NCBI GenBank assembly: GCA_029564595.1
Contig: JAKQPS010000160.1
Span: 1-64,000 of the forward strand
Source: a bacterium
GTDB taxonomy: Bacteria; UBP15; UBA6099
Direction: 5' to 3'
DNA: 64,000 nt
In this document: positions 515 through 22,869 of the stretch, one piece after another
How positions within the stretch are numbered: position 1 is the stretch's first letter
Layout: each line of letters starts with the position of its first letter
Notes under the pieces: model-generated
The model's database searches: none
Told to the model about the DNA's origin: nothing
The model's input: only the letters and a program-made list of their open reading frames with translations
Position numbers and translations under genes: made by a program

Positions 515-2119
515 ATGCAGATTCATTCAACTATAATGCGATTGAAAATCCCGCGCTGTTTTATCGAAATTAAGAATAAATTAAAAACACTGACGATTTT
601 ATCGTTTTCTTATGGCCTTTCGATTTGTATCGCTTTTTTTATGGCTTTTTGCGACATACCCAACTCGGCGGCAGCAGTAGATATGAAAGCAGTTTCAGCT
701 TTGGAGATTACCAGAGAGTCGCTAGCAAATACGGATTTAGAGTTTTTCGACGATGTGATTGTGAAGGTTTACAGCCCTTCGTTGGTTCTTTTGGCGGAAG
801 GAAAGATGGAGCAAAGCAAAACGTTTTCCATTAAAGTTCCCGGATTGGACGACTATGAATGGTTATACGTGGAAATCGGCGAACAAGAGAGTCATATATA
901 CGGCATATTTAACATTGAAGAAGGCGTGGTTGTGGACTATGTAACATCCACGATTATGGAAGCAATGCTGAAAATGAAAACGCGAATGGAGAACATTACA
1001 TTTGAGGAAATGAAGCATATTTTGCATGAGCTTCATAAAGCGGCTGATGCAGATGAATTATCCAAAGCAAAAAACGACTCGGACGCGATACGAATGCTTT
1101 TTTCGGACGAGGAGTATAGGCTTATGCTCGGCGATATGGCTATCTCTTTTTCGACTCCCGGAAACACATTGGAAGAATATGGAAAGCTCAATGAGACCAT
1201 GAGTCAAGGGATTAGTTTATTCGGCAAGGGCGACGTAGAAGCATTAAAAATGATGCTGACTGTCGACGCTGAAATCGAAATTGATGGTCAAACGGTGACT
1301 GGGGATCAGATATTTGATTCTCTTCGGTCATTAAGGAAGAAATACGAAGTTTTGAAATGGGACGCTTCATGCGAAAGAATAATCGTCAACGAGAATCGCG
1401 CGGAAGTTGAAACATTGGAAAGAATCATTCTGTCAGACAAAACTGAAGGCTCGATAACAAAAAACATAAGAATGGGTTTTGTTAATATCTTTGAAAAAAA
1501 TGAAAATCAATGGAAACTTCAGGAAAGACGAATGAAGAAATGCGAGCCTGCGAGGGCGTTGATTTTTGCGGACGGCTCGTCGGCGGATTGGACGGGCATA
1601 AGGCCTTGTGTTTCGAAATTCACATCAAAGAGCGGGTCAAAAGGGGAAAAGGCTGAACTTAGCTCGATATATCTGGCGTTCGACGACCCCGGCATTTTCT
1701 GGAGATTGGAAAACTCAAACAATTTGTTCAAAGAGAGCTTCGGCGCTTCGTCTGCCGTTCCAATTGATGAAACGGTTCATGTATTATTTGTGTTGACGTT
1801 AACAGACAAAACGGACGATGAGATTGATGAAGGCGTTTATAGTTGGACCGGGGTAGCCACAGGAAAATCTTACTCAATGAACGAGGCAATAACAACTGCT
1901 CCGGATGGGTTCAGAGAAAAAAACACGTATTTGCAGAACAATTTTCATGTGGGATCATCTTATGCAGAGGGAACAATCTCAAAGGAAGAAATAAAAGGCT
2001 TGAAGAAGAACGCTTATTTGAACGCAAGAATTGTCGTGGACAGGGGAGATGGGGAAAATGAAGTATTGTCAGAGGGCGTGCCAATAGAAATCGAATTTCC
2101 TCATGAATTGTTTCAATAA
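515..2119 (+). CDS. Exported hypothetical protein with an NTF2/SnoaL-like region
   Basis: A 534-residue protein starting at an ATG six bases after an AGGAG ribosome binding site. The N-terminus is basic and is followed by one hydrophobic stretch (about residues 28-50) ending in a small-residue run, which fits a signal peptide or membrane anchor. Residues roughly 225-345 alternate helix and strand and read like an NTF2/SnoaL-type fold: a count-down of charged helices, then paired strands on an Arg/Glu-rich ground. The rest is unrecognised. It stands alone before the hxs promoter and is less G+C-rich than the genes to its right. No function can be assigned, and the fold call is only an impression. 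Confidence 0.6.
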   Translation: MQIHSTIMRLKIPRCFIEIKNKLKTLTILSFSYGLSICIAFFMAFCDIPNSAAAVDMKAVSALEITRESLANTDLEFFDDVIVKVYSPSLVLLAEGKMEQSKTFSIKVPGLDDYEWLYVEIGEQESHIYGIFNIEEGVVVDYVTSTIMEAMLKMKTRMENITFEEMKHILHELHKAADADELSKAKNDSDAIRMLFSDEEYRLMLGDMAISFSTPGNTLEEYGKLNETMSQGISLFGKGDVEALKMMLTVDAEIEIDGQTVTGDQIFDSLRSLRKKYEVLKWDASCERIIVNENRAEVETLERIILSDKTEGSITKNIRMGFVNIFEKNENQWKLQERRMKKCEPARALIFADGSSADWTGIRPCVSKFTSKSGSKGEKAELSSIYLAFDDPGIFWRLENSNNLFKESFGASSAVPIDETVHVLFVLTLTDKTDDEIDEGVYSWTGVATGKSYSMNEAITTAPDGFREKNTYLQNNFHVGSSYAEGTISKEEIKGLKKNAYLNARIVVDRGDGENEVLSEGVPIEIEFPHELFQ

Positions 2120-2127
2120 ACTGTTTA

Positions 2128-2155
2128 TTGACATATACATATTATTAAATATACT
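2128..2155 (+). promoter_or_regulatory. Sigma70-type promoter of the hxs operon
   Basis: TTGACA (2128-2133) and TATACT (2150-2155) are separated by 16 bases in an A+T-rich gap between genes. This is one of the two best promoter matches in the window. It sits about 40 bases before the first hxs start codon at 2193 and no gene intervenes, so it most likely drives the whole maturase-precursor operon. Confidence 0.7.
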
Positions 2156-2192: not shown

Positions 2193-2753
2193 ATGTCTAA
2201 ATTATTTACAGAAATTTCTTTTGACACAAAGCTTTTTTCTGCTGACGCTTTACTTGGGGCTTGTCATAAATTTTTGGCAAAGTGTTTTGTCAAATTAGAA
2301 CATAGCGGAGACGGCAAGAGAATATTGGTTCGCCTTACAGCGAGAGAGGGGGTTTCTGTTGATGGGATTGAAGAGGAATTTCGGGCCGAAGCCCTCAATT
2401 ATGCTGTGAAGCAAAAAATCAGCAAAGGTTCCGCAAAAATAAGAGACCAGATTTTTCATATCGTGTTCAACCCGGAGAGATTGAACGCGCTTGGCGGTCA
2501 GCTTCAGACGGAACTTGAAACAAAAGTCGACCCGGATTCAGTCAAACTCAGCGCTCGACTTGAAAAGCTTCTTGAGGAGATCGAAAGCGAGGAGTCGTTG
2601 GATTACGAGGACGACCCGCTTGGAATTGCCGTTCCGTGGGAAGAGAAACATGGAATGCCCGGCGATCTGTTGCATCCCGTGGATCAATTGAAGAGGCAGG
2701 CTGAAAGCAATCTTATAAACATAGAAACGGTGAAGGAAATTGTCGACTGTTGA
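2193..2753 (+). CDS. hxsD: HxsD-like protein, long form (His-Xaa-Ser system)
   Basis: A 186-residue protein, first gene of the operon. The first ~95 residues follow the HxsD pattern: an aromatic 'FDTKLFS' strand, a helix, a beta strand pair, then a Leu-Asn-Tyr motif followed by basic residues and a terminal helix (about residues 68-95). NCBI families name this motif LLNDYxLRE in HxsD of the His-Xaa-Ser system, whose biochemical role is unknown. The C-terminal ~90 residues are acidic and Pro-rich and are not part of the usual short HxsD. The start is the ATG at 2193 with TAGGGTG upstream. Its 3' end overlaps the next small gene. Identification rests on motif and on the adjacent hxsB and repeat proteins. 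Confidence 0.6.
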   Translation: MSKLFTEISFDTKLFSADALLGACHKFLAKCFVKLEHSGDGKRILVRLTAREGVSVDGIEEEFRAEALNYAVKQKISKGSAKIRDQIFHIVFNPERLNALGGQLQTELETKVDPDSVKLSARLEKLLEEIESEESLDYEDDPLGIAVPWEEKHGMPGDLLHPVDQLKRQAESNLINIETVKEIVDC

Positions 2754-2949
2754 ATTTGACAAAAAGATATTTAGATTGAAGGCCGTGAAGTCCGCCGTGA
2801 AAGATTACAAGGATTTTGCCGATTTCGACGTGACCGAGAAAAAAGACCGAATCGTCGTGAAGGTTGAAAATGTCGACTATGAACCGGAGGACGTTTTTTT
2901 GGGTGAATTCGGCAATTACGTGATACATAAGATGAGCGTGAGACAATGA
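2740..2949 (+). CDS. Second, minimal HxsD-like protein
   Basis: A 69-residue protein starting at a TTG inside the end of the previous gene and ending in a 4-base overlap with hxsB. It has the same plan as the start of HxsD: Val-Glu-Phe-Asp, a helix, two strands, then 'GEFGNYVIHKMSVRQ', which aligns with the Asn-Tyr region of the HxsD signature and stops there. So the operon has two HxsD-type proteins, one with a long tail and one cut to the core. A precursor-binding role, like the small RRE or PqqD chaperones of other radical SAM systems, is inference. The TTG start is the only one available before the conserved region. Confidence 0.6.
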   Translation: MSTVEFDKKIFRLKAVKSAVKDYKDFADFDVTEKKDRIVVKVENVDYEPEDVFLGEFGNYVIHKMSVRQ

Positions 2950-4454
2950 GCGCGATAGATATAAAAAAAGTCAAAATCTCGAATTTTAGCGGAATGATAC
3001 CGTTCAGCTTCAGAAAACTAGGCGACACGTATATCGTTGTAAACGAATATGGGAATTACGTTTTTTTAACAGAAGAAGAATTCGTCAGTCTAGTAGAAAA
3101 CGGGCCTTCGGCATTGAGCAGGCCGGCGATAAAAGAGCTTACGGCGCAGAACATGCTGTTCACAAAAGAAACTGCGGCCAGAGCCGCCGAGCGGCTTAGG
3201 GCGAGGTTCGCGGACGCGGCGCGAGCGACGAACCTTCATATCATAGTGCCCACACTCAGATGCAATCTGCGTTGCGTTTACTGTCAGGCGGCCGCCGCAA
3301 GCGGAGACGATTATGAAACGGATATGGACATAGACACCGCGCGCGCGGTGGTCGATACCATATTCGATGCTCCCACGAAGCTGTTAAGCATCGAATTTCA
3401 AGGCGGCGAGCCTCTTCTAAACTGGGACACAGTGAAGTTTATTATCGAATACGCCGTCGAGCTTAACAAGACGAAAAAGAGAGAGCTGCGATTCAACGTT
3501 GTGTCCAACCATCTGCTGATGGACGACGAGAAACTGGATTTCCTGCTGGAACACAATGTGGTTATGTGCATGTCTCTGGACGGTCCGGCCTATGTGCATG
3601 ACAAGAACAGGGGGATCACTCACGACCGCGCGGTTGAGATGTACAAGAAGGTCTACCGCAGATATAAAGAAGTCGGAGCGGAAAGGTTGCCTTCTCTGAT
3701 AGGAACTCTATCAAAGCATTCCATGCCGTACCACAAAGAAATCGTGGACGAATATCGTTCGCTAAACGCGGGGTCGATTTTTGTGCGACCAGCGACGACG
3801 CTGGGCTACGCAGGCCGGAACTGGGATAAAATAGGTCTCTCTGCTGAAGAGTTTCTCGATTTTTACGAGAGGATGCTGGATTACATAATCGAGTTGAATT
3901 TAAAGGGAGAGAACTTCACTGAAACGTACGCAATATACGCGCTGTGTAAAATCGTCGCGGGTTTTGAGCCGGGATATGTGGACATGAAGTCGCCGTGCGG
4001 CGCTTCCATCGGGCAACTGGCTTACAATTACAATGGAGATGTGTACACATGCGACGAGGGCCGAATGCTGGGACATCAGGGAGATCACACTTTCAGGGTG
4101 GGCAAATGCGGCGAGTCGAGTTTTGAGGACTTAATAATGCACAGAGCGACGAAGGCTTGCGCGATCGCTTCCACTCTGGACACCACTCCGGGGTGTTCAG
4201 AGTGCGCCTACAAGCCGTATTGCGGGATATGTCCAGTCCTTAACTATTACGAGACCGGCGAGTTGTCTCCCAACGTTTTTACCACAAGGAGGCACACGGT
4301 GAACGAAGGGATCATCGATATACTCTTTAAAAGGCTGATGATTCCCGAAGTGGGAGACATATTTATTAAGTGGGCAAAAAACTATATGGATTCGAGCAAA
4401 AGAGATATTGAAAGCTCCAATAATCCGGAATGGGACAAGGCCGAGAAAGAATAG
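2946..4454 (+). CDS. hxsB: HxsB-like radical SAM/SPASM peptide maturase
   Basis: A 502-residue radical SAM enzyme. Residues 1-95 form a small N-terminal domain typical of HxsB-type maturases. The CX3CX2C cluster motif is at Cys106, Cys110 and Cys113, followed by a GGEP motif. The C-terminal third has a SPASM-type set of cysteines (CGAS...CDEG, then GCSECAYKPYCGICP) that would hold auxiliary iron-sulfur clusters. Related enzymes install C-C or thioether cross-links in ribosomal peptides. Here the obvious substrates are the three His-rich proteins encoded immediately downstream. It starts at an ATG overlapping the previous stop by four bases, so it is translationally coupled. The family match is good; the reaction is not known. 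Confidence 0.75.
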   Translation: MSAIDIKKVKISNFSGMIPFSFRKLGDTYIVVNEYGNYVFLTEEEFVSLVENGPSALSRPAIKELTAQNMLFTKETAARAAERLRARFADAARATNLHIIVPTLRCNLRCVYCQAAAASGDDYETDMDIDTARAVVDTIFDAPTKLLSIEFQGGEPLLNWDTVKFIIEYAVELNKTKKRELRFNVVSNHLLMDDEKLDFLLEHNVVMCMSLDGPAYVHDKNRGITHDRAVEMYKKVYRRYKEVGAERLPSLIGTLSKHSMPYHKEIVDEYRSLNAGSIFVRPATTLGYAGRNWDKIGLSAEEFLDFYERMLDYIIELNLKGENFTETYAIYALCKIVAGFEPGYVDMKSPCGASIGQLAYNYNGDVYTCDEGRMLGHQGDHTFRVGKCGESSFEDLIMHRATKACAIASTLDTTPGCSECAYKPYCGICPVLNYYETGELSPNVFTTRRHTVNEGIIDILFKRLMIPEVGDIFIKWAKNYMDSSKRDIESSNNPEWDKAEKE

Positions 4455-4564
4455 GCTTTGTTGAAAGCGCGCAGCGAGACAACAACGGAGCCGCGGTTGA
4501 GCCGACAATACGGAACGGGTTCGACCCTAACGCCGTCAAAAGTTCCGGAAATCGAAGGTGGGAT

Positions 4565-5377
4565 ATGGATAAACCAGCGAAGAAAACGCCGACCTCCGCC
4601 GCGCTCTCGAACAAGAAGGGCGCGCTTCCTTCCGTGGTAAACGATACTCTGGATTATTTCTCGCGGGAAGAAGCCAAGATATCCAGCAAAGGAGTGATGA
4701 CAGGCGCGTTGACTGTGGTCGCGCTAGGTCTTTTGGCGTCTCCCGTCACTCCTGTCCACCATGTGAGCTATCACGCAAATTTCAGCAATCACACAAACCA
4801 ATCCGCAGTCGACACACTCTCCAGCGTGGCGACGGTAGATCAACACACGAACACCAGCGCTCACGCCAACGCGGCCGCGGCAACCGGACATTATAGTTTA
4901 GCGAATCACGCCAATAAACCGGTCGTCAATGCGCACAACAACGTCAGCAACCATACAAACGCCAACGTGGTCGGACATGCGAACACTCCCGCGACTAATG
5001 TGACGGTGAAAGCAGCGGTGGACGCTCCAGTGACGAAGGGCAGTTTTCACAACAGCGGAGCTCAGGGCAAACACACCGCTTGGAACGCGCACGCGAACGC
5101 GACGGCGGTTCACGCGAGCACGGCGGCCACCACGACGCACATGAACACAACGGGACTCAACAAACACAACAGCGTCAATACTCATGCGAACGGAGCCGGA
5201 GTCAATTCGCACTCCAGCGTGAACGCGCACGCCAACTGGCCGGTGGTCAACACTCACTTCAGCGTCAATAATCATGCAAGCGCCGCAGGCGTTAGCGCGC
5301 ACACGAACGTCACGGGTGTTAACAACCACGCTCACGCGGCGACCCATACCAGCCACAGTTCGCACGCGTCTTGGTAA
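4565..5377 (+). CDS. hxsA: His-x-Asn/Ser repeat protein 1 (HxsA-like precursor)
   Basis: A 270-residue precursor starting at an ATG preceded by GAAGGTGGGAT, the same leader seen before both paralogues. Residues 1-35 are polar. Residues about 35-60 contain REEAKIS followed by a Gly/Ala/Val/Leu hydrophobic segment, possibly a leader or membrane anchor. The rest is Ala/Asn/Thr/Val with 28 histidines, nearly all in H-x-N or H-x-S. Their spacing alternates 6 and 9 residues (94, 100, 109, 115, 124, 130; then 201, 207, 216, 222, 231, 237, 246). A conserved block FHNSGAQGKH (161-170) splits two repeat tracts, and the protein ends in SHSSHASW. It has only one Cys-free low-complexity surface and no enzyme motif. 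HxsA-like identity follows from the repeats and the neighbouring hxsB and hxsD. Confidence 0.75.
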   Translation: MDKPAKKTPTSAALSNKKGALPSVVNDTLDYFSREEAKISSKGVMTGALTVVALGLLASPVTPVHHVSYHANFSNHTNQSAVDTLSSVATVDQHTNTSAHANAAAATGHYSLANHANKPVVNAHNNVSNHTNANVVGHANTPATNVTVKAAVDAPVTKGSFHNSGAQGKHTAWNAHANATAVHASTAATTTHMNTTGLNKHNSVNTHANGAGVNSHSSVNAHANWPVVNTHFSVNNHASAAGVSAHTNVTGVNNHAHAATHTSHSSHASW

Positions 5378-7060
5378 TGAACGAGCCTTATACTCTGGCC
5401 GCAGGCCGAGAGGTGGAACAAATGGAAACAAGTAAAACGGCGAGGATCGGAGGAAAAAGAATTCTTCCCGAGATAAAGAGCAGTGTAGAGGCTTATTTTT
5501 TGAGGGAAGAAGCCAAGGTGAGCACAAAAGGGATAGCTGCCGGAGCCGCAGCCTTGATCGCTCTCGGCATGATAGCGGATCCTTCTCTGGGATGGCACAC
5601 AGCCGCTCACTCCAGCATCCATGTCCACTCAAATCAAGGCTCGGTCAATGCGCACACAAGCGCGGGCGGGGCCAACACGCATTTTAACTCCTCATCGCAT
5701 GTAAATCTGGCCGCGGTCAACGTTCATTCGAACATCAATACTCATGCCAACGCCGGATTGGTTAACACGCATTCAAACGTAAACAGCCATACCAACCAAG
5801 CGGCTGCGACAGGACACTCCAACGCCGGCCACACCAACGTGGCGGCCCTTCATTCCAACGAAACCGTAACAAGAGGCGGATTCCACAACAGCGGCGCGCA
5901 GGGCAAACACAGCGCGTACAACGCGCATTCAAACGCCAGCGAATCTTCGCATGTGAATTCGGCGGGAACGAACACCCACACCAGCGTGGCGGTCATGTCG
6001 AGGCATGTTTCAGTCGCCAATCACGCCAACACAGGGGCCGTTAACTCCCATACGAGCGCGTCGGCGCATTCCAGCTCCGCGGCGCAGAACCAGCACGCCC
6101 ACGCCGCCTCTCACGCCAGCCGGGCAGCTTACTCCGGGCACAGAAATCTGGGCGCAGTCAACATGCACAGCCAGTCTTCGAGCCACGTTAATCACGCTTC
6201 GCATGCTTCGTGGTGAAGCGCGCCGATGACAACCGCAAGGGTTGGCAGAATCACACGGGAGAAGGTGGAACATGAAAAAAAGCGACCGGCTTTCCAAACA
6301 AGTTGAAAGAGCGTTGTCTCTTCCCCGAGCGGTTGCGGACGCGCTATCGTACATCACGGCGGAAGAAGCAAAAATCACTTCGTCAGCCGTGATGAAGGGG
6401 GGGCTTGCGCTGGTCGCGCTAGGAATGATGTCCTACCCGGAAATAGCGAAGTCGTCTCATGAAAGTCTGCATGTGAGCTGGAGTAACCACGCCAACAGAG
6501 CCGCTGAGTCATACCACATCAACGTCCCGGTCATAAACCAGCATGTCAACGCAACCACTCATTCCAATAGAGCGGCAACCTCGGCTCATTCAAACGTTAA
6601 CACACATGCCAACACTGCGGTGGTTAACGCGCATAACAACGCAAACGTTCACGCCAACACTGCGGCGGTGAATGCCCATGCAAGCAAGCCCGCGATAAAT
6701 GTGGCGCCGGTCCACGCGAATTCCGCTTTGACAATAGGCGGCTTGCATAACAGCGCCGCGCAGGGAAAACACACGGCATGGAACACGCACGCCAGCCAAG
6801 CCACAAGCGCTCACACCAACACAGCCGCTTCTACGACTCACAACAACGCGGCCGCGACAACCATTCACTCTAATGTGAACACCCATGCCAGCGCCAATGC
6901 GTTGAACACGCACAGAAGCATGAACACTCCAGTGGCTTCTCCATTGCTCAACAGGCATGCTCAGATACAAACCCATTCAAGCGCGGCCGCCACAAATGTT
7001 CATGCAAACATTGAGGCAATAAACGTGCACAGCAACGCGAACACGCACGGAGCGCATAAC
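4844..7060 (+). repeat. 45-bp-period coding repeats in the three precursor genes
   Basis: Within each hxsA-like gene the DNA repeats with a 45-base period that encodes 15 residues holding two histidines, spaced 6 and 9. The consensus peptide is roughly V-N-x-H-x-N-x-N-x-H-A-N-x-A-A. The repeats are degenerate at the DNA level (different Ala, Asn and Thr codons), so they are old. They are not CRISPR or satellite repeats. Confidence 0.8.
5422..6216 (+). CDS. hxsA: His-x-Asn/Ser repeat protein 2 (HxsA-like precursor)
   Basis: A 264-residue paralogue of the preceding gene. The start chosen is the ATG after GAGGTGGAACAA, matching the leaders of the other two copies; an upstream in-frame start at 5371 would add 17 unmatched residues. 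The N-terminus has LREEAKVS and a Gly/Ala-rich hydrophobic segment (about 36-53). Thirty-one histidines follow, again on the 6/9 lattice (78, 87, 93, 102, 108, 117, 123, 132; later 186, 195, 201, 210, 216, 225). The central block FHNSGAQGKH is at 154-163 and the end is HASHASW. It lies in the same operon, 45 bases after the first copy's stop. Confidence 0.75.
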   Translation: METSKTARIGGKRILPEIKSSVEAYFLREEAKVSTKGIAAGAAALIALGMIADPSLGWHTAAHSSIHVHSNQGSVNAHTSAGGANTHFNSSSHVNLAAVNVHSNINTHANAGLVNTHSNVNSHTNQAAATGHSNAGHTNVAALHSNETVTRGGFHNSGAQGKHSAYNAHSNASESSHVNSAGTNTHTSVAVMSRHVSVANHANTGAVNSHTSASAHSSSAAQNQHAHAASHASRAAYSGHRNLGAVNMHSQSSSHVNHASHASW

Positions 7061-7078
7061 TCGCACGGTTCTTGGTGA
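6272..7078 (+). CDS. hxsA: His-x-Asn/Ser repeat protein 3 (HxsA-like precursor)
   Basis: A 268-residue third paralogue, with the leader GAAGGTGGAAC before its ATG. It has AEEAKIT and a hydrophobic segment at about 40-55, then 27 histidines on the 6/9 lattice (91, 97, 106, 112, 121, 127, 136; 190, 199, 205, 214, 229, 235, 244). The lattice position 220 is Pro instead of His. The central block reads LHNSAAQGKH (158-167) and the end is HNSHGSW. It diverges most from the other two, which suggests the copies are under selection for the pattern and not recent duplicates. Function unknown; likely substrate of the surrounding radical SAM enzymes. Confidence 0.75.
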   Translation: MKKSDRLSKQVERALSLPRAVADALSYITAEEAKITSSAVMKGGLALVALGMMSYPEIAKSSHESLHVSWSNHANRAAESYHINVPVINQHVNATTHSNRAATSAHSNVNTHANTAVVNAHNNANVHANTAAVNAHASKPAINVAPVHANSALTIGGLHNSAAQGKHTAWNTHASQATSAHTNTAASTTHNNAAATTIHSNVNTHASANALNTHRSMNTPVASPLLNRHAQIQTHSSAAATNVHANIEAINVHSNANTHGAHNSHGSW

Positions 7079-7237
7079 CGCGCGGGCGGATCGAAAATTA
7101 GGAAAGCGCCCAAAAATAACGCTAAAAGGAAAATATCCGATTTCACACAAGGGGACAAATAAAGGCGGGCTGAAGCGGTAGTTTCGAACCAGCGTGAATG
7201 CCTTTTTCCTGTTTTCGGAAGACAAGGGACAGCGACA

Positions 7238-8188
7238 ATGGGGAGTTTCGGCTACTTTCAGATAACGCGGCGGTGCGATCAACATTGCCTGATTTGCTCA
7301 AACCCAGAGAACGACAACTCAATATCCCTTGAGCATGGAATCGCATATCTTGACTCCCTGATATCAGACGGCGGCTATGAGGGAGTAATCATAACGGGCG
7401 GAGAGCCGACGCTGTCGGAATATCTTCCAGAATACCTAATGCATTGCGCTGACAAAGGTTTTTCCAGCGTTCTTATAACAAACGGTCAGAACTTGGCCTC
7501 CGCGGCTTTTGCGAAGAAACTCAAAGCCGCGGGGCTTGAGAAGGTTGTTCTTTCACTCTACTCGTGCGATCCGATAATTCAGGGCAGATTGACCGGGAAC
7601 CCTGATTCGCTTAGCAACGTGAACAAAGCGGCGGCGAACTTGGAGAAACTCAGCGGAATAACGCTAAGCGTCACGATAACCATGAACAAGCTTAACGCCG
7701 ACCATCTCAGCCGCAATGTGGAGCACATCGTTAAGCGCATGCCGAGCGTCAACCATGTGGTTTTTAACAACTTGGACCCTCTGATGAACAGGGCCGCTCA
7801 ACACCCGGAAACTCTGCACAGGCTTAACGACATCGACATAGAGTTGACTAGGGCGGTTGACATGCTGCGAAGCAACAAAATGACATATCGAATAGAGAGA
7901 GTTCCCCTTTGCTATATGGGCGGATACGAACACAACTCGACTGAAACCCGACGAATAGTGAAAAACGAAAAAGTGAGAATTCTTTTTCTGGACGAAAAAG
8001 GAGAGGTGGACCAAGCGCAGGGCGATTTCCTGTACGGGAAAGCCGAATGCTGCAAGGTCTGCTATCTTAACGATATCTGCATGGGCCTGTATTCGATGAA
8101 TGATTGCTATATGTCCGAAGAGCTTTTTCCCGTGTTTCACACAACCAAGGAAGAAGTCGCCGAGAAAGTTGTTTCGAACGCGCCGTGA
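7238..8188 (+). CDS. HxsC-like radical SAM enzyme
   Basis: A 316-residue radical SAM protein that begins almost directly with its cluster motif (Cys13, Cys17, Cys20) and has a GGEP motif at about residues 54-57. After Cys20 comes SNPEND, similar in placement to the Pro/Asn-rich segment after the cluster in HxsC proteins. A C-terminal CCKVCYLNDIC could hold an auxiliary cluster. It follows the third precursor after 159 bases with no visible terminator and has an AAGGGA site before its ATG. In known Hxs loci two radical SAM proteins, HxsB and HxsC, accompany HxsA, so this is the best HxsC candidate. The 8231 gene is the alternative. Confidence 0.6.
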   Translation: MGSFGYFQITRRCDQHCLICSNPENDNSISLEHGIAYLDSLISDGGYEGVIITGGEPTLSEYLPEYLMHCADKGFSSVLITNGQNLASAAFAKKLKAAGLEKVVLSLYSCDPIIQGRLTGNPDSLSNVNKAAANLEKLSGITLSVTITMNKLNADHLSRNVEHIVKRMPSVNHVVFNNLDPLMNRAAQHPETLHRLNDIDIELTRAVDMLRSNKMTYRIERVPLCYMGGYEHNSTETRRIVKNEKVRILFLDEKGEVDQAQGDFLYGKAECCKVCYLNDICMGLYSMNDCYMSEELFPVFHTTKEEVAEKVVSNAP

Positions 8189-8230
8189 TGCGGTTCCGCA
8201 CGGCGCTCCCGCAGCCTACTGGAGAAGGAA

Positions 8231-9157
8231 ATGGACAACAGGCTTGACCTTAAAGTGGGATATAACTGCAACAATTACTGCAAGCATTGCGTCATAGGAG
8301 ACAAGCGCTTTTTCATTCCCGACAGGACGACAAGGCAGCTGAAGGACGTGCTTGACGAGGAAAAAGACAACTATCATGAAGTGGTTTTCACCGGCGGGGA
8401 ATTCACGATAAGGAAGGATTGTTTCGAGCTTTTAGACTATGCGGCTTCGCTCGGATATAAAATACTGATACAGACTAACGCAAGAAGATTCGCATACAGC
8501 GCTTTTTGCGATGAGTTCTTAGCCGCCGGGCAAGGGAAGATATTAACCGTGACCGGGGCGCTTCTATCGGCGAACTCCGACTGTCACAACTATCTCACCG
8601 GGGCTGACAGCTATCGGCAGACGGTCAAAGGACTGTGCAATCTCAAGGCGCGCGGTCAGCAGGTGTCGATTAACACCGTGGTAACCAAGGTCAATTACAG
8701 AACATTCCCGGATCTGGCAAGGTTTCTTATAAGAATCGGCGTTGATGTTTATCAATATGCGTTCGTCCACGTGTTGGGAAGCGCAGACAAAAACATCTTG
8801 TCTATCCTTCCCAAAAAATCCTTGGTGGTTCCTTTTATCAAAATGGGCATTGAAATAGGAAAAGCGGCTGGCGTTCCCGTTTATGTCGAGGCGATACCTT
8901 TCTGTCTGATGCAGGGCTACGAAAGAAACATTGCCGAGAACTATATTCCGCAGGTTAAGCTTAACGATGTAACTAACACAGTGGCGGATTTCGATTACGT
9001 GAGAAAAACATACGAAAAGGAAAAGGCTCCTTCCTGCAGAAAATGCGCATGCTTCAGCGTTTGCGAAGGCCCGTGGATACAGTATCCGCGGACCTACGGC
9101 TGGAAGGAGTTTGAGCCGATAGCGCCAGCGCCTGTCAAAATGGACGCCAGATTATAA
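8231..9157 (+). CDS. Radical SAM enzyme with a twitch-like C-terminus
   Basis: A 308-residue protein with CX3CX2C at Cys13, Cys17 and Cys20 and a TGGEF motif at about 55-59. The end has CRKCACFSVCEGP followed by a Tyr-rich segment and Glu-Phe-x-Pro-Ile. That Cys-x2-Cys-x5-Cys-x-Gly arrangement is common in radical SAM proteins with one auxiliary cluster. It starts 42 bases after the previous stop, preceded by GGAGAAGG. By position it belongs to the precursor operon. Its substrate is not known; modification of the repeat proteins is inference. Confidence 0.65.
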   Translation: MDNRLDLKVGYNCNNYCKHCVIGDKRFFIPDRTTRQLKDVLDEEKDNYHEVVFTGGEFTIRKDCFELLDYAASLGYKILIQTNARRFAYSAFCDEFLAAGQGKILTVTGALLSANSDCHNYLTGADSYRQTVKGLCNLKARGQQVSINTVVTKVNYRTFPDLARFLIRIGVDVYQYAFVHVLGSADKNILSILPKKSLVVPFIKMGIEIGKAAGVPVYVEAIPFCLMQGYERNIAENYIPQVKLNDVTNTVADFDYVRKTYEKEKAPSCRKCACFSVCEGPWIQYPRTYGWKEFEPIAPAPVKMDARL

Positions 9158-9189
9158 CGGACCGAAGAACGGAGTTGGAGATATTGTGG

Positions 9190-10209
9190 ATGAGCGAGAA
9201 TAAAACAGAAAGCGCAAGCGGGATTTCCTCTCCGACGAAGCCCCCGCTTTTCGGATGGTATAAACCGCAGTATTTGTATGACATCTGCGAAGCGAGAGGC
9301 GGCATTGGGCAACTCTTTCTGTATTACTCGGTCTTGGCGGGCCTTAAGCCCGCGCTCGATGAGTGGATCCCGACCGAAAGGTTGCCTAGATATCTCAAGG
9401 TTTGCGAAAAATATGGACTTCTGACAGAGATTGAATCGATTTTCTACAATGAGGCTTCGGACGAAGTGAGAGATTCCATAGGCGGAGAGTTCCTCACGAC
9501 CACTGTGGCCTGCGGAGCGCCCGCCGGGTCGGGCTACTCGGGGCGCGCTCACATATATGTCTCAAAATCAGAGGAGGCTCTTGACAGAATCAAACGGACG
9601 GGATGGTATCCTATTTCCGTAAATAGAAGGATTGTCACCAAGCCGCAGATAGATTACATGTGGTTCGGCGAGCATCTTGGATACCCGAAATGTTGCATCG
9701 ACTATTTCTCCAGAGTGAACAACCATTCGTTATATCCCAACACGCTTCTGCTCCCTTTCAAGAACACCAAATCGAAGCCCAACTACCTGTGCAACTCTCT
9801 TGTGAAAGACGCGTATTGTTATCTTTATCATATTCCCTGCGGGTTCGACTGTCGCGCCACGGCTGAACTCTCCGCCGAACTGAGGGCATTTATCCAGAAA
9901 CACGATCGCGGCTACGCCGATTACATAGACAGGCACATGAAGCTCAACTTTATCGTTTTCAGAGAGAGAGACATCTACGCGTTCGACGGGGTCCCCGAAG
10001 GAAACGTTCTCAAATACAACGTAACGGCTTTTGTGGACAGCTATCTTTATCCCGGAGAACTGCTTAATGTTTTTGCCCACAACGACACTCTGGCGATCCA
10101 CGAGGATAAAATCTTTGTAATGAGCGGCGGAAAGATAACCAACACAATACATAAAACGGAGAGGGCGGAATGGTTCTTTATTTCGTTTGCAGATGATAAT
10201 ACCATTTGA
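9190..10209 (+). CDS. DUF483-like protein of the radical SAM operon
   Basis: A 339-residue protein. The ATG at 9190 has GGAG nine bases before it, so I prefer it to the TTG at 9175. The middle carries LGYPKCCIDYF, the hallmark of the DUF483 family (known mainly from archaea and scattered bacteria), with further Cys residues nearby. No radical SAM motif is present. DUF483 has no assigned function. The paired cysteines next to a conserved Pro suggest metal or cluster binding, which is inference. It overlaps the next gene's start, so the two are coupled. Its place between maturase genes argues for a role in the same modification pathway. Confidence 0.55.
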   Translation: MSENKTESASGISSPTKPPLFGWYKPQYLYDICEARGGIGQLFLYYSVLAGLKPALDEWIPTERLPRYLKVCEKYGLLTEIESIFYNEASDEVRDSIGGEFLTTTVACGAPAGSGYSGRAHIYVSKSEEALDRIKRTGWYPISVNRRIVTKPQIDYMWFGEHLGYPKCCIDYFSRVNNHSLYPNTLLLPFKNTKSKPNYLCNSLVKDAYCYLYHIPCGFDCRATAELSAELRAFIQKHDRGYADYIDRHMKLNFIVFRERDIYAFDGVPEGNVLKYNVTAFVDSYLYPGELLNVFAHNDTLAIHEDKIFVMSGGKITNTIHKTERAEWFFISFADDNTI

Positions 10210-11443
10210 CGAAAACTTGGCGAAAACGTTGTCGGTCAACTATGGCCTGTACTCGCACAGGGAGTATAACGACTATTCATTCGATGTTTCGAACGACATG
10301 ACCCTGATCTCTCAGATCACACTGATGGCGTATAACGATCCCGATCGATTCAAATCTCTCAAAGGGTTCCTTGCCGGCTATGCGAAAGGCGCGGACTCCG
10401 ACCAGTTTCTTTCGAGCGCGGCATACTGCCGATACGCGGACAGAGAATTTGAAGAGGGCATGAAACTGACAGCTTCCCTGCTCGAATGCCGTCCGACAGA
10501 CTTGGACGCTTGGCTGGACGTATGTTTCTTCCTGTCGCACATTTCCGACGGATACCGCACTTATCTCAATATGAGATTCCATCTTTATCATTTTATTCAC
10601 TTCTACTTGAAATATGACTTCCGGGAAGTGAACAAAGAGTCTATCGGCATTTTAGACAGTCTCGTAAGGAGCGCGGCGGAGAGCGACCCCGAAATTCGAG
10701 AAGGATACGACAGCAAAGCGGCTTTTGACACGGAATATCTGATCCTCAACGGCGCCTGCAATAACAATTGCGAAATATGCCCCACGCCATTCAGCCTCAG
10801 GGATTATGACTTCAAGGAACGCATAATTAGAAACGGTTCTCTGCCTTTGTCAAAATACATATTCATAAAAGCGCGCAAAAAGAAGATCAAGACTTTTGTG
10901 CTTAAGGGAGGAGAACCGACTTTTCATCCGGATTACTTGAAAATCGTGAGGATTCTGGCGGCGGCTAGGAAAGACATTTCTATTCGCGTAAGGTCCAACG
11001 CCAGAGCGTTTTGCGACGAGAGACGTCTGAACAAGCATGTCGATGCCAATGTTTCAAATATGACGATCGAAGCCGGAGTCTATTCGGAGGACCCGGAAAA
11101 ACACGACGCCATAGCGCGGGCGAGAGGAAGCCACGCTCAAACTGTCGCCGGGATTAAAAACGTTCTCTCCTCTGGAATGAAAGCTTCGGCCAGAATCACG
11201 CTTTGCGACTCAAACATCGGAGACTTGCCGAGAACTCTCGATTTTATTCTTGAAACGTTCGGCTCGCGGCCGGGTTTTGTGGAAGCGGCGGTTCTGCTTC
11301 CGCCCCCAAGCGGGGAAAACCTCTCAAAATACTATCCGGACGCAGTGAAACGGCTCCGCGATGCCGCCATGAGCATGATCGCGGAACGCCAGCATAGCGA
11401 ATGCGTTGTGACTATGCCGAACTCAGTTCTGGCCCTTGACTGA
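10193..11443 (+). CDS. Radical SAM enzyme with a 180-residue N-terminal helical domain
   Basis: A 416-residue protein starting inside the previous gene's end (ATG 10193; a TTG at 10187 would add two residues). Residues 1-180 look helical and repeat-like (TPR-type in feel) and carry no cluster motif. CX3CX2C is at Cys189, Cys193 and Cys196, followed by a KGGEP motif. There is no C-terminal Cys cluster, unlike its neighbours, so it may use only the SAM cluster. The helical domain could bind the long repeat proteins, but this is inference from domain order. Confidence 0.65.
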   Translation: MIIPFDENLAKTLSVNYGLYSHREYNDYSFDVSNDMTLISQITLMAYNDPDRFKSLKGFLAGYAKGADSDQFLSSAAYCRYADREFEEGMKLTASLLECRPTDLDAWLDVCFFLSHISDGYRTYLNMRFHLYHFIHFYLKYDFREVNKESIGILDSLVRSAAESDPEIREGYDSKAAFDTEYLILNGACNNNCEICPTPFSLRDYDFKERIIRNGSLPLSKYIFIKARKKKIKTFVLKGGEPTFHPDYLKIVRILAAARKDISIRVRSNARAFCDERRLNKHVDANVSNMTIEAGVYSEDPEKHDAIARARGSHAQTVAGIKNVLSSGMKASARITLCDSNIGDLPRTLDFILETFGSRPGFVEAAVLLPPPSGENLSKYYPDAVKRLRDAAMSMIAERQHSECVVTMPNSVLALD

Positions 11444-11482
11444 GCGGCTGCCGCGAAGAGAATCGAACTCCTCTAACTTGCG

Positions 11483-13012
11483 ATGAACGAATATAATTCA
11501 GAGAACAAAAAGTATTGGGTTAGGCTTACGCGCGTTTGCAACAACAACTGTGTGTTCTGCCTAGACGCAGACGAGCAGGACGGAAGCTTTGAGATGACGG
11601 AAAGCATCCTTGCGCTGTTGCGGGCAGGCCGCGCGAGGGGGTTTGATCATGCCGTTCTGTCCGGCGGCGAACCCTCTCTTCACCCTGATTTTTTCGCGAT
11701 AGTATCTGAAACGAAAAAAATGGGCTACAAGAGGACTCAGACAATCACCAACGGGCGGATGTTCAGCTATGCCGGCTTTGCCGAAAGAGCCGTCGCCGCT
11801 GGGCTGGATGAAGCGACATTCTCTCTACATTCCGGATCCCCAGCCGATTTCGAGGCTCTTACAAGAACCCCCGGAAGCTATGACGAGGCTTTGAAAGGTT
11901 TTATGAGAGCGGCAAAGCTTTCCGGTCTTGCGGTGTCGGTCGATATCTTATTGACGGCGCGCACAATACCCGGTCTGACAGGTTGGATAAACGAATTGTC
12001 TAGCTTGGGGGCGTCTGAGTTCGACATACTGTATCCGATTCCTTTCGGCGAGGCTTGGAAGCATAAAAATGAAGTTTTTTTCAACCTTGATGAGCGAGCA
12101 AAGGATATTGTAGAAGCGTTCGAGTTCTGCGAAGAACGAGGCTTCAAAGCGTGGTCGAACAGGATACCGGCGAGAGTGTTCGAGGGGGCGGAGAGGTTTA
12201 TTCAATCGCCGTTGAAACTCAGAGTCGAGGTCGAGGCCAAGAGAGATATGTTCGAAGCTTTGGCGAACAGAGGAATGGAACCGCCTTGCCGCGGAGAAAG
12301 ATGCGCTCTTTGCCATGTGTCAGAGTTCTGTCGGTCATTGCGGCGGTTCTCGGCGGCAATCGCTTCGAAGAAGATGCCATCTTTACTAGTGACACAAGGC
12401 AATATAGAGCGGTTAGACGAAAATTTCCCCGGGTCGCCGAAAACGATTGTTATCGGCGGCTTCGACCTTTTAAAAAGCGAGAACGTGAAACGCCGTTTGT
12501 CAAAAAGGGAAATACGAGTCGAGGCGCTTCTTGACAAGCCTCTTGAAAATCATCAGGGCGTTCCTGACTTCGTTTCAGCGGTTTATTTAGAAATCAACAA
12601 GGCCACAGCAAGCGACCTGTCACATTTAAAAAGCCCTTTTCTCGACAAGGTCGAACTGAAAACAGTTTTAAGAGGGCGCGCGACGCTTGAGGAAGCAGCG
12701 AAAAAAGACGTTCCGATAGCCGGTTTCATGCAAGAGTTCTTAAAAGGCGGGGGCGCGGAAATAGAGATATTTAATGTTCCACGATGTCTGACCGGACGCT
12801 CGGAGATGCGTGTTTTCGAAGCTGTGCCGGCGAATGTGTTCAAGAACAGCGAAGAAATCGATTTGGACGAATACGTCGGCTGCTATATGGCAAACTGGAT
12901 GAGCGTAAAGAGCGCTAGATGCGCAGGATGCAGTCATTACGCCGACTGTCCGGGGATTCACATAAACCATGTGAGAGCTTTCGGCTTTTCAAATATTCCG
13001 TTCGGAATATGA
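11483..13012 (+). CDS. Radical SAM enzyme with a duplicated C-terminal cysteine region
   Basis: A 509-residue protein with CX3CX2C at Cys19, Cys23 and Cys26 and an SGGEP motif at about 62-66. One twitch-like cluster sits near residues 272-283 (CRGERCALCHVSEFC). A further ~200 residues end in a second similar set (CAGCSHYADCPG). The second half looks like a degenerate copy of the barrel's end without a SAM cluster motif, so the protein may be a fused pair. It is the last plus-strand gene of the precursor operon and converges on a broken radical SAM gene. Confidence 0.65.
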   Translation: MNEYNSENKKYWVRLTRVCNNNCVFCLDADEQDGSFEMTESILALLRAGRARGFDHAVLSGGEPSLHPDFFAIVSETKKMGYKRTQTITNGRMFSYAGFAERAVAAGLDEATFSLHSGSPADFEALTRTPGSYDEALKGFMRAAKLSGLAVSVDILLTARTIPGLTGWINELSSLGASEFDILYPIPFGEAWKHKNEVFFNLDERAKDIVEAFEFCEERGFKAWSNRIPARVFEGAERFIQSPLKLRVEVEAKRDMFEALANRGMEPPCRGERCALCHVSEFCRSLRRFSAAIASKKMPSLLVTQGNIERLDENFPGSPKTIVIGGFDLLKSENVKRRLSKREIRVEALLDKPLENHQGVPDFVSAVYLEINKATASDLSHLKSPFLDKVELKTVLRGRATLEEAAKKDVPIAGFMQEFLKGGGAEIEIFNVPRCLTGRSEMRVFEAVPANVFKNSEEIDLDEYVGCYMANWMSVKSARCAGCSHYADCPGIHINHVRAFGFSNIPFGI

Positions 13013-13062: not shown

Positions 13063-14537
13063 TTATGTGGAAATGATGATTTTGTCGCGCGGGCGCTTTG
13101 TGATTGAAATAAGTTCCTCTTGATTGTAGAAAAATTTAGAAAGAACGGCTTTTTCAAAACCGTCGCAGAGCATCTCTATGGAATCTTCGCCGACGCTCAA
13201 TTTGCCCAAGTTCTGCAATGTTTCGATTTCGTGTCTGAAAACCGACTCGATATCGAGACCGAAGACGGTTTTGAATAGAGAACGCGATACATTGCCGGTT
13301 TTGTAAAAGGCTTTCAGAACGAAGTCTCTCATGCGATCTATAGGCTCGCGCCGGGAGAATCGATAAAAAGTGTCCCTGAATCTGAAGCCCGGATCCAGCG
13401 GGTTCGGAACTTGTCCGAGCGCAGCTGAGCCGCCCGGACCTAAGTTGAGAGTATCAGCAGAGTTTTCCATGAACGACCTTGCCCCGACTCCCAACCCGAT
13501 CATCGAGTTTCTCATGTCTGGATGCCACTCAGTAGGCTGGTTGCCGATTAGACAGACGAAATCCTTTCTAACGAACAACTGGCAATTGAGAAATGGATTT
13601 GAAGAGAGATTAGTGTATCCGGCGCGCGAGGCTGCGTCGATTGTCGCCTAAAGATACCTGACCGAGAAATCTTCCGAGTTTTCCGCAATGTAGTTTTTTC
13701 TTGCTTCTTCTACGTATCGGGAGTTCTCAAGCCTGAAGAAATAAACGTTGATGGTTGCGGGGCCTAACTGAGAAGCTTTTTCAAAGGAATCCCGGAAGGC
13801 GTCGACGCTGTCTCCCGGCAAGCCCGCGATCAGATCAAAATTTAACGCGTCCACTCCTAGAGAGCGAAGCCGATCCATTATCCGTGAAAGACACTCGATG
13901 TTTGAGTAGTCTCTGTCGGCATAGCTCAGAGCCGAAGGGTTTAAAGATTGAACTCCGACACTCATTCTGCTTATGCCCGCGGAGACCGCAATCGCAAGTT
14001 GTTCGTCCGTGACTTGAGTGGGCTTTATTTCCAGTGTCAGCGACCCTCCGGTGGCAAAACTAGAATTCGAGTTTATCTCCGAGAAAAGTTTTTTCAGAAG
14101 CTTCCCGGACAACAAAGTCGGCGACCCTCCTCTGATTTGCATTGTCTGAAAATGGAAATCTTTGAAAGCCCCGGAGAAAAATGAAGCCTCCTTTGCCAGA
14201 TACCCGACATGTTTTCCTAGTTCCGATTCGCTCTCAATTATCCGGGAGTTATACATGCAATAGAGGCATTCGCGCTTCTCGCAATACGGCACGTGAACAT
14301 ACAGAGATAAAAAAGGCTCGTTTTATCAGACAGAAATCCGCGCCAATGCTTGAGAGCCTCGTCAGGGGAGATATAACCGTGTATCCCGGTCGAAATATAA
14401 ATATAAGGACTAAATAGATTATACTCTTTGGTCAACAGTTCATAAAATTCGATTCTTTTGCGAGCGTTGCGATAATCCATAATATCTTCCACGTATAGCG
14501 CGGACGATTTCAAAGCCTGCGATCGCGGGCCATCCAA
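13063..14537 (-). pseudogene. Broken HemN-like radical SAM gene (frameshift plus in-frame amber)
   Basis: Three adjoining minus-strand segments form one HemN/HemW-like protein of about 490 residues. The first (14537 to ~14310) runs into the wrong frame at an A6 run (14309-14314); adding one base there joins it to the segment that contains the cluster motif and RGGSPT and SVGVQS motifs. That segment ends at TAG (13650-13648), but the same frame continues without break through a HemN-type C-terminal part to 13063. A CAG-to-TAG change would explain the amber. The cluster motif reads C-EKRE-C-LY-C, CX4CX2C, one residue longer than the usual HemN CX3CX2C. TAG is a normal stop elsewhere, so decay is likelier than recoding. 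A sequencing error in the A6 run is possible. Confidence 0.7.
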
Positions 14538-14766: not shown

Positions 14767-16170
14767 CTAGAAGGTTTTTCTTTTGCTGTTCACTCCGAGC
14801 ATTGTAAAAATCTGATAAAGAGAAAAGAGAGCCGTAATGAGCCATTTGGGGTTGTTTTTCAACACGTAGCGAACTAGGTTTATAACCGTTCGCGGGTTCG
14901 TCATATATTTTCTTCTGAATGAATGGACGCATCCGTCTATTTCAGCCTTTGTAAGTTCTGTGAGGGGTCGGGATCGTGCTTTCTGTAAATCATAAAGAGG
15001 CGAGCCTTTCAGGATTCCCAGAGAGTACACGGCGATGAAATCTGGGCGCGATTCGAATGCGAAGTCCACGGACCGAGCCACGGAGTCCCTAGTCTCGCCC
15101 GGCAAACCCACGATGAATTCCACAAAAGTCAGCATGCCTTGTTTTTTCGCCGCTACGATTTTCTCTTTCAGCAGCAGCGGCTCTTCGGGCTTCCTGTTTA
15201 TGCTTTTAAGTATTTCCGGGTCTGCGGATTGAATGCCGAAATGAACGGTGTCGCACCCGGCGCGGCGAAGAAGGCGCATCCTTGCCTCAGCGTCCCGGCG
15301 AGGCAGGGACGGGTGCATGTTGCAGACCCATCCGACCGGATATTTTCTGTCTATCATGCCTAGGCAAAATTCCTCGGTCCAATCTCCGTTGACGCCGAAT
15401 ATGTCGTCCCGGAATGCGATGTACCGGGCTTTGCAATCCGACACAAGCATCGATATTTCCTCAAGGACATTCGCCGGGGACCTGTGCCTGATTTGCCTGC
15501 CCCACATCGTCGTGGAACTGCAATACGCGCAGTTCATCGGGCATCCGCGGGAAGCGACAACGGAGAAGTACGGACGGCGCATATTGATGTTGCCGAGAGC
15601 GAAATACTTCCCGGCGGCGCTCCGGGAGCGGGTCGGAAACGGTATGGAGTCAAGGTCTTCCACCGGCGCGCGCGGCGGCGTCTCTATTACTGAACCTCCC
15701 TCGATATATGATATTCCCGGCGTTGAATCTCTGCCGCGTTTCCCTTCAATGACATCCAGCATGTCCAGCGCCGTTCTTTCACCTTCTCCATTGCAGACCA
15801 TGTCGCAACCGGCCTTTAGTATCGGCTCAGCTTCGAACGGAGGGCCTCCCGCTATTATTGGAACCGAAGTTCTCCCTCGGACGGTTTCGATTATTCTTGC
15901 GGCTTTCTTCTCGAGGTCCGGGTCGGTGCAGAGATATATCCCCAGAGCGTCGTAGCCTCCTCTGTCTATAATCTCCGCAAGCCCGTCGGCGCTGAACGGA
16001 ACAATTCGTTCATCCAGTATGTCCGCTTCGATGTTCCTTTCGAGTTTGAACACAGAAGCAAGGTACATAAGGCCGAGCGGTTCGCCTCGGGACATCCTGA
16101 GGAGATGCTTCTCTTTTCCAGAGCCAAGCTTTTCTTCCACGAGGAAATTTACCAGCAGAATTCTTCTCAT
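14767..16170 (-). CDS. Radical SAM protein with a B12-binding-type N-terminal domain
   Basis: A 467-residue protein. Residues 1-170 form the Rossmann-like domain typical of B12-dependent radical SAM enzymes (ILLVN start, GLMYLAS helix, GGPPF and GEGE segments), although I see no D-x-H-x-x-G cobalamin signature. CX3CX2C is at Cys210, Cys214 and Cys217, and FGIQSADPEIL and VGLPGET motifs follow in the barrel. Family members methylate or rearrange unactivated carbons on lipids, antibiotics or peptides. It could add to the precursor modification or belong to the glycan region. It reads towards the broken HemN-like gene and diverges from neuB. Confidence 0.7.
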   Translation of the reverse strand: MRRILLVNFLVEEKLGSGKEKHLLRMSRGEPLGLMYLASVFKLERNIEADILDERIVPFSADGLAEIIDRGGYDALGIYLCTDPDLEKKAARIIETVRGRTSVPIIAGGPPFEAEPILKAGCDMVCNGEGERTALDMLDVIEGKRGRDSTPGISYIEGGSVIETPPRAPVEDLDSIPFPTRSRSAAGKYFALGNINMRRPYFSVVASRGCPMNCAYCSSTTMWGRQIRHRSPANVLEEISMLVSDCKARYIAFRDDIFGVNGDWTEEFCLGMIDRKYPVGWVCNMHPSLPRRDAEARMRLLRRAGCDTVHFGIQSADPEILKSINRKPEEPLLLKEKIVAAKKQGMLTFVEFIVGLPGETRDSVARSVDFAFESRPDFIAVYSLGILKGSPLYDLQKARSRPLTELTKAEIDGCVHSFRRKYMTNPRTVINLVRYVLKNNPKWLITALFSLYQIFTMLGVNSKRKTF

Positions 16171-17749: not shown

Positions 17750-18267
17750 AGATTCCCTCGGAAATCATGCCGGACACAGTTGAAAGAATCCGCGCGTTGA
17801 AACTTATGGCGTTTGATTTCGACGGCGTTTTTACCGACAACATGGTGTATGTTTCGCAGGATGGAAGTGAAACTGTCCGATGCAGCAGGGGAGACGGTTT
17901 AGGGTTGCAGACGCTGAGGGCGCTCGGGATGGAGCTAATAATAATTTCCACTGAAACAAATCCGGTTGTGTCGGCGCGGGCCGCCAAACTCGGCATAAAA
18001 TGTGTTCAGAGTTGCGGCGACAAGAGGGCCGCGCTGGAGAAGGCAGCCAAGGAAATCGGCGCGGAACTGGCTCAGGCCGGGTTCATGGGCAACGATATAA
18101 ACGATCTGAAATGTCTCGAAGCGGCGGGGCTGCCGATTGTGGTGAGCGACGCGCATCCAGATGTTCTTGAGGTTGCGGCGTATCGGACAAGGGCGCGAGG
18201 CGGTGAAGGCGCGGTGCGCGAAGTTTGCGATCTGATAGCCGCCATAAAGCAGAACAAGACTGCGTGA
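17746..18267 (+). CDS. KdsC-like HAD phosphatase
   Basis: A 173-residue cap-less HAD-superfamily phosphatase. Motif I is FDFDGVFTDN (near residue 25), the STE motif II follows, and GNDINDL is the Mg-binding motif. Proteins of this size and form (KdsC, and the phosphatase halves in neu clusters) remove the phosphate from 2-keto-3-deoxy sugar acid phosphates such as KDO-8-P or Neu5Ac-9-P. It overlaps neuB by four bases, so it probably acts on the NeuB product, which implies that NeuB makes a phosphorylated acid. Confidence 0.8.
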   Translation: MKIPSEIMPDTVERIRALKLMAFDFDGVFTDNMVYVSQDGSETVRCSRGDGLGLQTLRALGMELIIISTETNPVVSARAAKLGIKCVQSCGDKRAALEKAAKEIGAELAQAGFMGNDINDLKCLEAAGLPIVVSDAHPDVLEVAAYRTRARGGEGAVREVCDLIAAIKQNKTA

Positions 18268-18273
18268 GGGATA

Positions 18274-20570: not shown

Positions 20571-20837
20571 ATGCGAGCGGCATTGTCGCCGGCTTCCTGT
20601 TATCGGCATAGCGCGGGGTCCGTCCGGCGCGGGTATAAATAGAATAAAGCATTATATGGAAGACTATCTTGACGGGTTTTCTCCGCCGGGAATTCTTTTC
20701 GTCGTCTTTTATGGATAAAATATGCTTCAGTTGACAGCGCGATTATGAGATCAGGGCGTCAGCCGACTGAAATTGCGAGTTTCTCCGCGCTTTTTTCGAA
20801 TAGCGCGAAATATTGAAGACAAAGGAAAATTTAAGAC

Positions 20838-22772: not shown

Positions 22773-22869
22773 TTGCAAGCGAGAGGCCGCCTTCTTCGGA
22801 TTGAGCGCGCATGTCAGGGCGGATTAAGTTGGAACGACGTTTTGCGCAACCTTAAGGGAGCGTCCGACT

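Follow-up and report, generated by a model that had tools for sequence, protein, structure and literature searches.

The closest described relatives of the locus reported here are the His-Xaa-Ser (Hxs) systems HxsA-B-C-D, recognised with the models TIGR03976 (HxsD), TIGR03977 (HxsC) and TIGR03978 (HxsB); in the canonical loci that we examined (Nostoc plasmid p057_G, Sphingobium and Adhaeribacter) the genes are arranged as hxsA-D-B-C and the precursor is short. Variation beyond this arrangement is already known to the annotators of NCBIfam, since the families HxsA3, HxsA4, HxsC4 and HxsD_rel have been named (NF038309, NF038313, NF038332 and NF038315). In the triceptides, radical S-adenosylmethionine (SAM) enzymes of the SPASM type (HaaB, YhhB and ScaB) likewise pair an aromatic residue i with residue i+2, and His serves as a ring partner (PMC11002830). 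Here we analyse an Hxs-like operon of eleven co-directional genes at positions 2193-13012 of the window, a 64,000-nucleotide stretch that is contig C99 of the 4.4-Mb genome of an uncultured bacterium from a small candidate phylum.

Like the Hxs systems, this operon encodes an HxsB over its cut-off, an HxsD-type gene directly upstream of it, HxsC-like partners and a putative substrate with His-x-Ser repeats. In contrast with the canonical loci, it has three precursors of about 270 amino acids (aa) with H-x-N besides H-x-S, four diverged HxsC-like radical SAM proteins (rS1 to rS4) and no canonical HxsC, a second HxsD-type protein and a DUF483-like protein, which aligns with DUF483 (PF04467) around YPxCC and PCxxxC at a score below gathering. 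Among the NCBIfam variants, HxsD_rel is matched over its cut-off and rS2 matches HxsC4 along its full length, but rS2 scores far below the HxsC4 cut-off, and the long cores with His spacings of 6 and 9 and the DUF483-rS3 pair lie outside those models. The known triceptides, for their part, form His-Ala or His-Arg links within short peptides, whereas the operon encodes about 25 repeated His-x-Asn/Ser units per 206-residue core.

The sequence marks the locus as a variant of the Hxs family that is new and strongly conserved, although NCBIfam names cover part of the variation; neither the trio of long precursors with 6/9 spacing nor the module of DUF483 and rS3 nor the linkage to fibre-like genes described below was found in the literature searched. 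We read it as an expanded Hxs maturation operon. By analogy with characterised enzymes, the most likely of the readings considered here, on which we are nonetheless evenly divided, is that several radical SAM enzymes would act on long HxsA-type substrates and form His(i) to Asn/Ser(i+2) links. Its features, with all eleven genes present where the initial annotation placed them, are as follows:

2128..2155, + strand: sigma-70-like promoter TTGACA-16-TATACT, 11/12 consensus
2193..2753, + strand: HxsD-like protein, 186 aa (TIGR03976, 30.4 bits, below the cut-off of 50)
2740..2949, + strand: HxsD_rel, 69 aa (NF038315, 71 bits, cut-off 41)
2946..4454, + strand: HxsB, radical SAM/SPASM maturase (TIGR03978, 475.8 bits, cut-off 370)
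4565..5377, + strand: precursor A1, 270 aa, core of 206, 24 H-x-S/N units in the core; start set by orthology and ribosome-binding site; own clade
5422..6216, + strand: precursor A2, 264 aa, core of 206, 25 H-x-S/N units; weak HxsA3 match (20 bits); own clade
6272..7078, + strand: precursor A3, 268 aa, core of 206, 24 H-x-S/N units; own clade
7238..8188, + strand: rS1, diverged HxsC-like radical SAM protein with C-terminal CxxCx5C (HxsC model, 89.6 bits, cut-off 267.9)
8231..9157, + strand: rS2, radical SAM protein nearest to HxsC4 over its whole length (NF038332, 105.2 bits, cut-off 500)
9190..10209, + strand: DUF483-like protein, YPxCC...PCxxxC (PF04467, 18.3 bits, below 25)
10187..11443, + strand: rS3, radical SAM domain after an N-terminal domain of about 180 residues (PF04055, 47 bits)
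11483..13012, + strand: rS4, radical SAM protein with two C-terminal-type CxxCx5C motifs (PF04055, 70.7 bits)

Conservation of the operon in the host phylum

We compared the locus across a sample of 386 genomes, seven of which belong to the host phylum. The full gene set recurs in two genomes of the same genus, G004 (bacterium ADurb.Bin236, a relative reported to have, besides SepCysS, an unusual SepRS that includes a serine-editing domain; PMC5424206) and G006, in which it is spread over two contigs. Genome G002, from another family of the same order, keeps the gene order D1-Drel-B-A1-A2-A3-rS1-rS2-DUF483-rS3, D1 and Drel being the two HxsD-type genes, without rS4. Misassembly is excluded by the synteny in these three genomes, and the proposal that precursors and extra radical SAM genes travel together is supported by their adjacency in four genomes from two families.

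Two simpler loci, on contigs G002:C205 and G003:C2, carry one short precursor, HxsB, orthologues of rS1 and rS2 and one or two further radical SAM proteins, and their short precursors are HxsA4 proteins over cut-off (68.8 and 71.5 bits against 55). This distribution suggests that HxsB, rS1 and rS2 constitute the shared core of Hxs loci in the phylum. The DUF483-like gene and rS3 are found in all four long-precursor operons of the phylum and in neither of the two HxsA4 loci, indicating that in this phylum they probably go with long precursors. HxsB is over cut-off in 5 of the 7 genomes of the phylum, compared to 2 of the 379 other sampled genomes, and hundreds of HxsB genes are found on plasmids.

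Precursors with a conserved His-x-Asn/Ser register

The H-x-N and H-x-S repeats first noticed in the three precursors amount to 24-25 units in each, whereas shuffled cores average 6.6-9.9 and reach 13-17 at most; a chance origin is thereby ruled out. Each precursor contains 27-31 His residues, spaced mostly by 6 or 9 in alternation, and the adjacent spacings that are multiples of 3 number 20/27, 20/30 and 22/26 (P<=0.0002 each against shuffles). In the 12 operon precursor copies that we compared (A1-A3 from operons in two families), the core, which begins at the first His and ends at the C-terminal Trp, invariably spans 205-207 residues, and 22 of the 43 invariant alignment columns are His.

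Between families (window against G002), His residues are 90-96% identical and the residue at +2 stays Asn or Ser in 93-97% of cases, with an identity at +2 of just 41-54%; the remaining core positions are 30-46% identical. Conservation of His and Asn/Ser with interchange of the latter two is the pattern expected from a need for His followed at i+2 by a small polar residue, and this strong constraint favours the earlier suggestion that His-x-Asn/Ser may be the ring unit. Inspection of the alignment by eye indicates that both halves of the core carry a His run of spacing 9,9,6,9,6,9,6,9, flanking a conserved centre, [KR]Gx(2)HN[SN]xxQGKHxA(W/Y). The C-terminus reads HxxHxSHxSW or a close form in all but one precursor, and the leaders of A1-A3 have in common a Y(F/I)..EEAK motif followed by a hydrophobic stretch. 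A1, A2 and A3 define three clades spanning the family split (SH-aLRT 84, 89 and 99), indicative of an old precursor trio that has been kept. All three lie far below the HxsA3 and HxsA4 models (20 bits for A2 with HxsA3, cut-off 65).

Radical SAM enzymes and HxsD-type proteins

The operon had been annotated with one HxsC-like enzyme and three other radical SAM proteins. This division is not upheld by the profile comparisons, in which rS1, rS2, rS3 and rS4 all match HxsC (89.6, 93.2, 79.2 and 66.8 bits, cut-off 267.9) and HxsC4 (54.9, 105.2, 39.2 and 96.8 bits, cut-off 500) far below cut-off, and none of them groups with canonical HxsC; they are thus better described as four diverged HxsC/HxsC4-like proteins. 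All radical SAM proteins of the operon keep CxxxCxxC, and C-terminal Cys motifs are kept in HxsB, rS1, rS2 and rS4. In a quick tree of the radical SAM domain, with several open forks and some long branches, rS1 (4 loci), rS2 (5 loci), rS3 (2) and rS4 (2) each occupy one side of a branch, with canonical HxsC apart from them. Orthologues of rS1 are present in all four Hxs loci compared within the phylum, the rS2 clade of five takes in genome G031 from another phylum, and orthologues of rS3 (39% identity) and rS4 occur in G002 and G003, respectively. HxsC4-like radical SAM proteins are also encoded elsewhere in the same genome.

HxsB exceeds its curated cut-off, carries its CxxxCxxC at residue 106 and also matches the PapB, GrrM/OscB and YhhB models, together with a weak match to Pfam SPASM (15.3 bits). 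The two genes upstream were both called HxsD-like, an assignment that holds over cut-off for HxsD_rel (54% orthologue in G002) and remains under it for the longer gene (53% orthologue in G002). The longer protein is composed of an N-terminal HxsD-like domain and a C-terminal extension; the extension carries a DPLGI motif that recurs in G002 and G003 as (Y/F)E(D/E)DPLGI(A/S)xP and is possibly a docking element. In the AlphaFold2 model, residues 1-78 form an alpha/beta domain of moderate confidence. Foldseek returned weak matches with this model (best E 0.03), which would allow an alpha/beta fold of the ferredoxin-like or KH-like type.

The DUF483-like protein

The assignment of the window protein to DUF483 stands in part: it lies under the Pfam gathering score (18.3 against 25), with homologues in other loci at or near that score (25.1 bits for one in the G031 Hxs locus), and the four Cys of YPxCC and PCxxxC are invariant in seven DUF483-like sequences. 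This motif is a possible metal or Fe-S site, and the protein may be a metal- or cluster-binding partner of the radical SAM enzymes. Its profile, built from these very sequences, matches in 5 of the 386 genomes, all of them HxsB-positive (3e-10 by chance with phylogeny ignored, four of the five being relatives). Independent support for the DUF483-HxsB link therefore comes from G031, which belongs to a different phylum and whose HxsB locus contains two DUF483-type proteins, rS2-like, HemN-like and B12-type radical SAM proteins, a methyltransferase and further radical SAM proteins. That locus (G031:C80; L055, L032) has about seven radical SAM-type genes. Plasmid searches for DUF483 and HxsC4-like proteins returned nothing useful, and the genomic link between DUF483 and HxsB was not found in the literature searched.

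On G000:C147 (L050:6196-10626), G006:C104 (L073) and G002:C6 (L074), a short DUF483-like protein is encoded between a radical SAM-methyltransferase fusion and a double-radical-SAM protein; this conserved trio, with no HxsB nearby, is possibly a second peptide-modification system.

Orphan precursor trios and tail-fibre-like proteins

A precursor profile run over the 386 genomes matched in just five, all of the host phylum and always as trios. Two of these trios, on G004:C6 (L094:10605-16340) and G005:C13 (L095:12926-18720), consist of A1-A2-A3 without maturases and have a His spacing closely similar to that of the operon precursors; no HxsB was found in G005, a genome that is 67% complete. Both orphan trios immediately follow, in the same orientation, the gene for a large secreted repeat protein, 1053 aa long in G004, with GDGSGLTG/KTGDTMTG repeats of the tail-fibre type. 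Homologues of this fibre-like protein immediately precede HxsA4 in G003:C2, lie upstream of HxsB in G002:C205 and some 5 kb before the operon in G004:C2, and adjoin HxsC4-like radical SAM genes on G000:C147 and G002:C10; further copies are present on G000:C45 and G006:C449.

Because there are few copies per genome, this adjacency is unlikely to be due to chance, and the fibre-like neighbours are the best hint of a surface role. The surface role envisaged in the initial annotation hence gains genomic support, by guilt by association, from precursor trios and HxsA4 genes adjoining tail-fibre-like secreted proteins; this support does not extend to an S-layer. Since the gene set is conserved in the phylum and repeatedly stands beside surface-fibre-like genes, it may build a surface material that is chemically cross-linked.

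Proposed maturation pathway and alternative explanations

Radical SAM enzymes are known to link His C2 to the beta-carbon at i+2, as in the His-Ala and His-Arg products of HaaB and YhhB and the His-Ala product of ScaB, and MscB joins Phe to the beta-carbon of Ser (PMC11002830), so the premise that such enzymes cross-link His to a nearby residue is well founded. With Asn or Ser as acceptor, this geometry best explains the precursor data. In the proposed pathway, the HxsD-type proteins would bind the shared N-terminal leader, in which the Y(F/I)..EEAK motif precedes a hydrophobic helix. HxsB and the HxsC-like enzymes would then act along the core, possibly one after another on the same substrate as first suggested, and bond every His through its side chain to the beta-carbon of Asn or Ser at i+2, so that the core becomes a series of three-residue rings. 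A step particular to the long 6/9 cores may fall to the DUF483-like protein and rS3, which in this phylum have so far been seen with no other cores. The hydrophobic leader segment would then export the core, which may reach the cell surface, possibly together with the tail-fibre-like proteins; leader export, surface location and in-register assembly are proposed with decreasing certainty. A stronger version, in which A1-A3 are equal-length chains of one in-register heteromeric ring-linked fibre, made by five radical SAM enzymes and associated with the tail-fibre-like protein, appears to us distinctly unlikely; if true, it would be a structural protein of a new kind, cross-linked by enzymes, and not a small ribosomally synthesised and post-translationally modified peptide.

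Several observations weigh against the ring-forming pathway. No product of any Hxs system was found in the literature searched. The operon contains no protease or exporter gene, rS4 is absent from the G002 operon, and the G031 locus, with HxsB, DUF483 and HxsC4-like proteins, yielded no H-x-S/N repeat precursor. The G000:C45 copy of the fibre-like protein had no HxsC-like radical SAM gene or precursor in the stretch read. The catalytic equivalence of the operon enzymes to known Hxs families is uncertain because scores fall below the HxsC, HxsC4, HxsA3 and DUF483 cut-offs. Furthermore, AlphaFold2 predicted no fold for a precursor with nine sequences (mean pLDDT, or predicted local distance difference test, of 31), and we consequently make no claim on the shape of the product, be it solenoid or triple helix.

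The radical SAM enzymes might instead perform other chemistry on the cores, such as epimerisation to D-residues, methylation or His oxidation, with His-x-Asn/Ser as a recognition motif and, for instance, a D/L helix as in proteusins as the outcome. The richness of the cores in Asn, Ala, Val, Thr and Ser is in line with this, as are the B12-type radical SAM protein and SAM methyltransferase of the G031 HxsB locus and the lack of any Hxs chemistry in the literature searched. The window operon, however, contains neither a B12-type radical SAM protein nor a methyltransferase, its HxsB also matches SPASM models of cyclophane- and thioether-forming enzymes, and so tight a pairing of i with i+2 is more readily reconciled with a side-chain bond than with epimerisation; we deem such chemistry unlikely. 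The presence of four extra radical SAM genes next to three precursors, the loss of rS4 in G002, the enzyme-free trios of G004:C6 and G005:C13 and the HxsC4-like proteins elsewhere in the genome could also be accounted for by redundant or private enzymes, each serving one precursor or acting somewhere else in the cell; paralogous Hxs modules would then have accumulated in the operon, which would not encode a single pathway. We judge this unlikely, given that the enzymes are different subfamilies instead of copies paired to precursors, that loci whose sole precursor is HxsA4 likewise contain rS1 and rS2, and that the three precursors have common leader and core motifs. Lastly, the abundance of His in the precursors and the invariant Cys of the DUF483-like protein would be expected if the precursors were His-rich metal-binding proteins whose metal site is installed or tuned by the radical SAM and DUF483 proteins. 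This is very improbable, as His tracts need no fixed 6/9 register, strict Asn/Ser at +2 or invariant core length, and the short precursor relatives are (HGS)n arrays.

Under the ring-forming pathway, should each core become a chain of rings, the precursors would be among the most heavily radical SAM-modified proteins and possibly a structural material. The locus makes the Hxs problem tractable, because each precursor has about 25 nearly regular units in which conservation marks His and the Asn/Ser at i+2 as the putatively modified pair, the enzyme complement changes with the kind of substrate, DUF483 and rS3 accompanying the long cores, and there is a genomic link to surface fibres.

Transcription and flanking genes

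The starts of A1, A2 and A3 (4565, 5422 and 6272) were set from orthology and Shine-Dalgarno-like sequences, and that of the DUF483-like gene (9190) from reading the sequence. Successive gaps and overlaps in the operon are -14, -4, 110, 44, 55, 159, 42, about 32, -23 and 39 nucleotides, and with the revised starts the precursor genes themselves do not overlap. As for the single promoter that had been proposed, the TTGACA-16-TATACT site is the best of 22 promoter-like matches in the region, and its hexamers and spacing are identical in the congeneric G004 and G006; this is a consensus match and not proof of a promoter. An Rfam search revealed no RNA element. The genes immediately flanking the operon are:

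515..2119, + strand: g1, 534 aa, DUF4440 (NTF2-like) domain protein, probably secreted (PF14534, 27.2 bits against 25.2)
13063..14490, - strand: HemN/HemZ-like radical SAM gene, broken by a frame change and an in-frame TAG, convergent with the operon

G004 and G006 have an 83-85% identical copy of g1 in the same place. Homologues number one to three per genome, and two of the three G002 copies adjoin its Hxs operon; another is found on G000:C147, and DUF4440 relatives repeatedly adjoin Hxs loci. An intact counterpart of the HemN/HemZ-like gene, 472 aa long, occupies this position in G004 (L023:17909-19327), and a 28% homologue lies within the G031 Hxs locus; the tie of the gene to the operon is uncertain. 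Next to the broken gene, 14767-16170 (- strand) encodes a radical SAM protein with a B12-binding domain and HpnJ/BchE-like scores below cut-offs, of which no close copy was found adjoining the operon in G004. Further downstream, 16688-27315 contains open reading frames that, by eye, resemble a NeuB-like synthase, a KdsC-like phosphatase, a transketolase and a CMP-sugar synthetase, and looks like a nonulosonic-acid or surface-glycan region.

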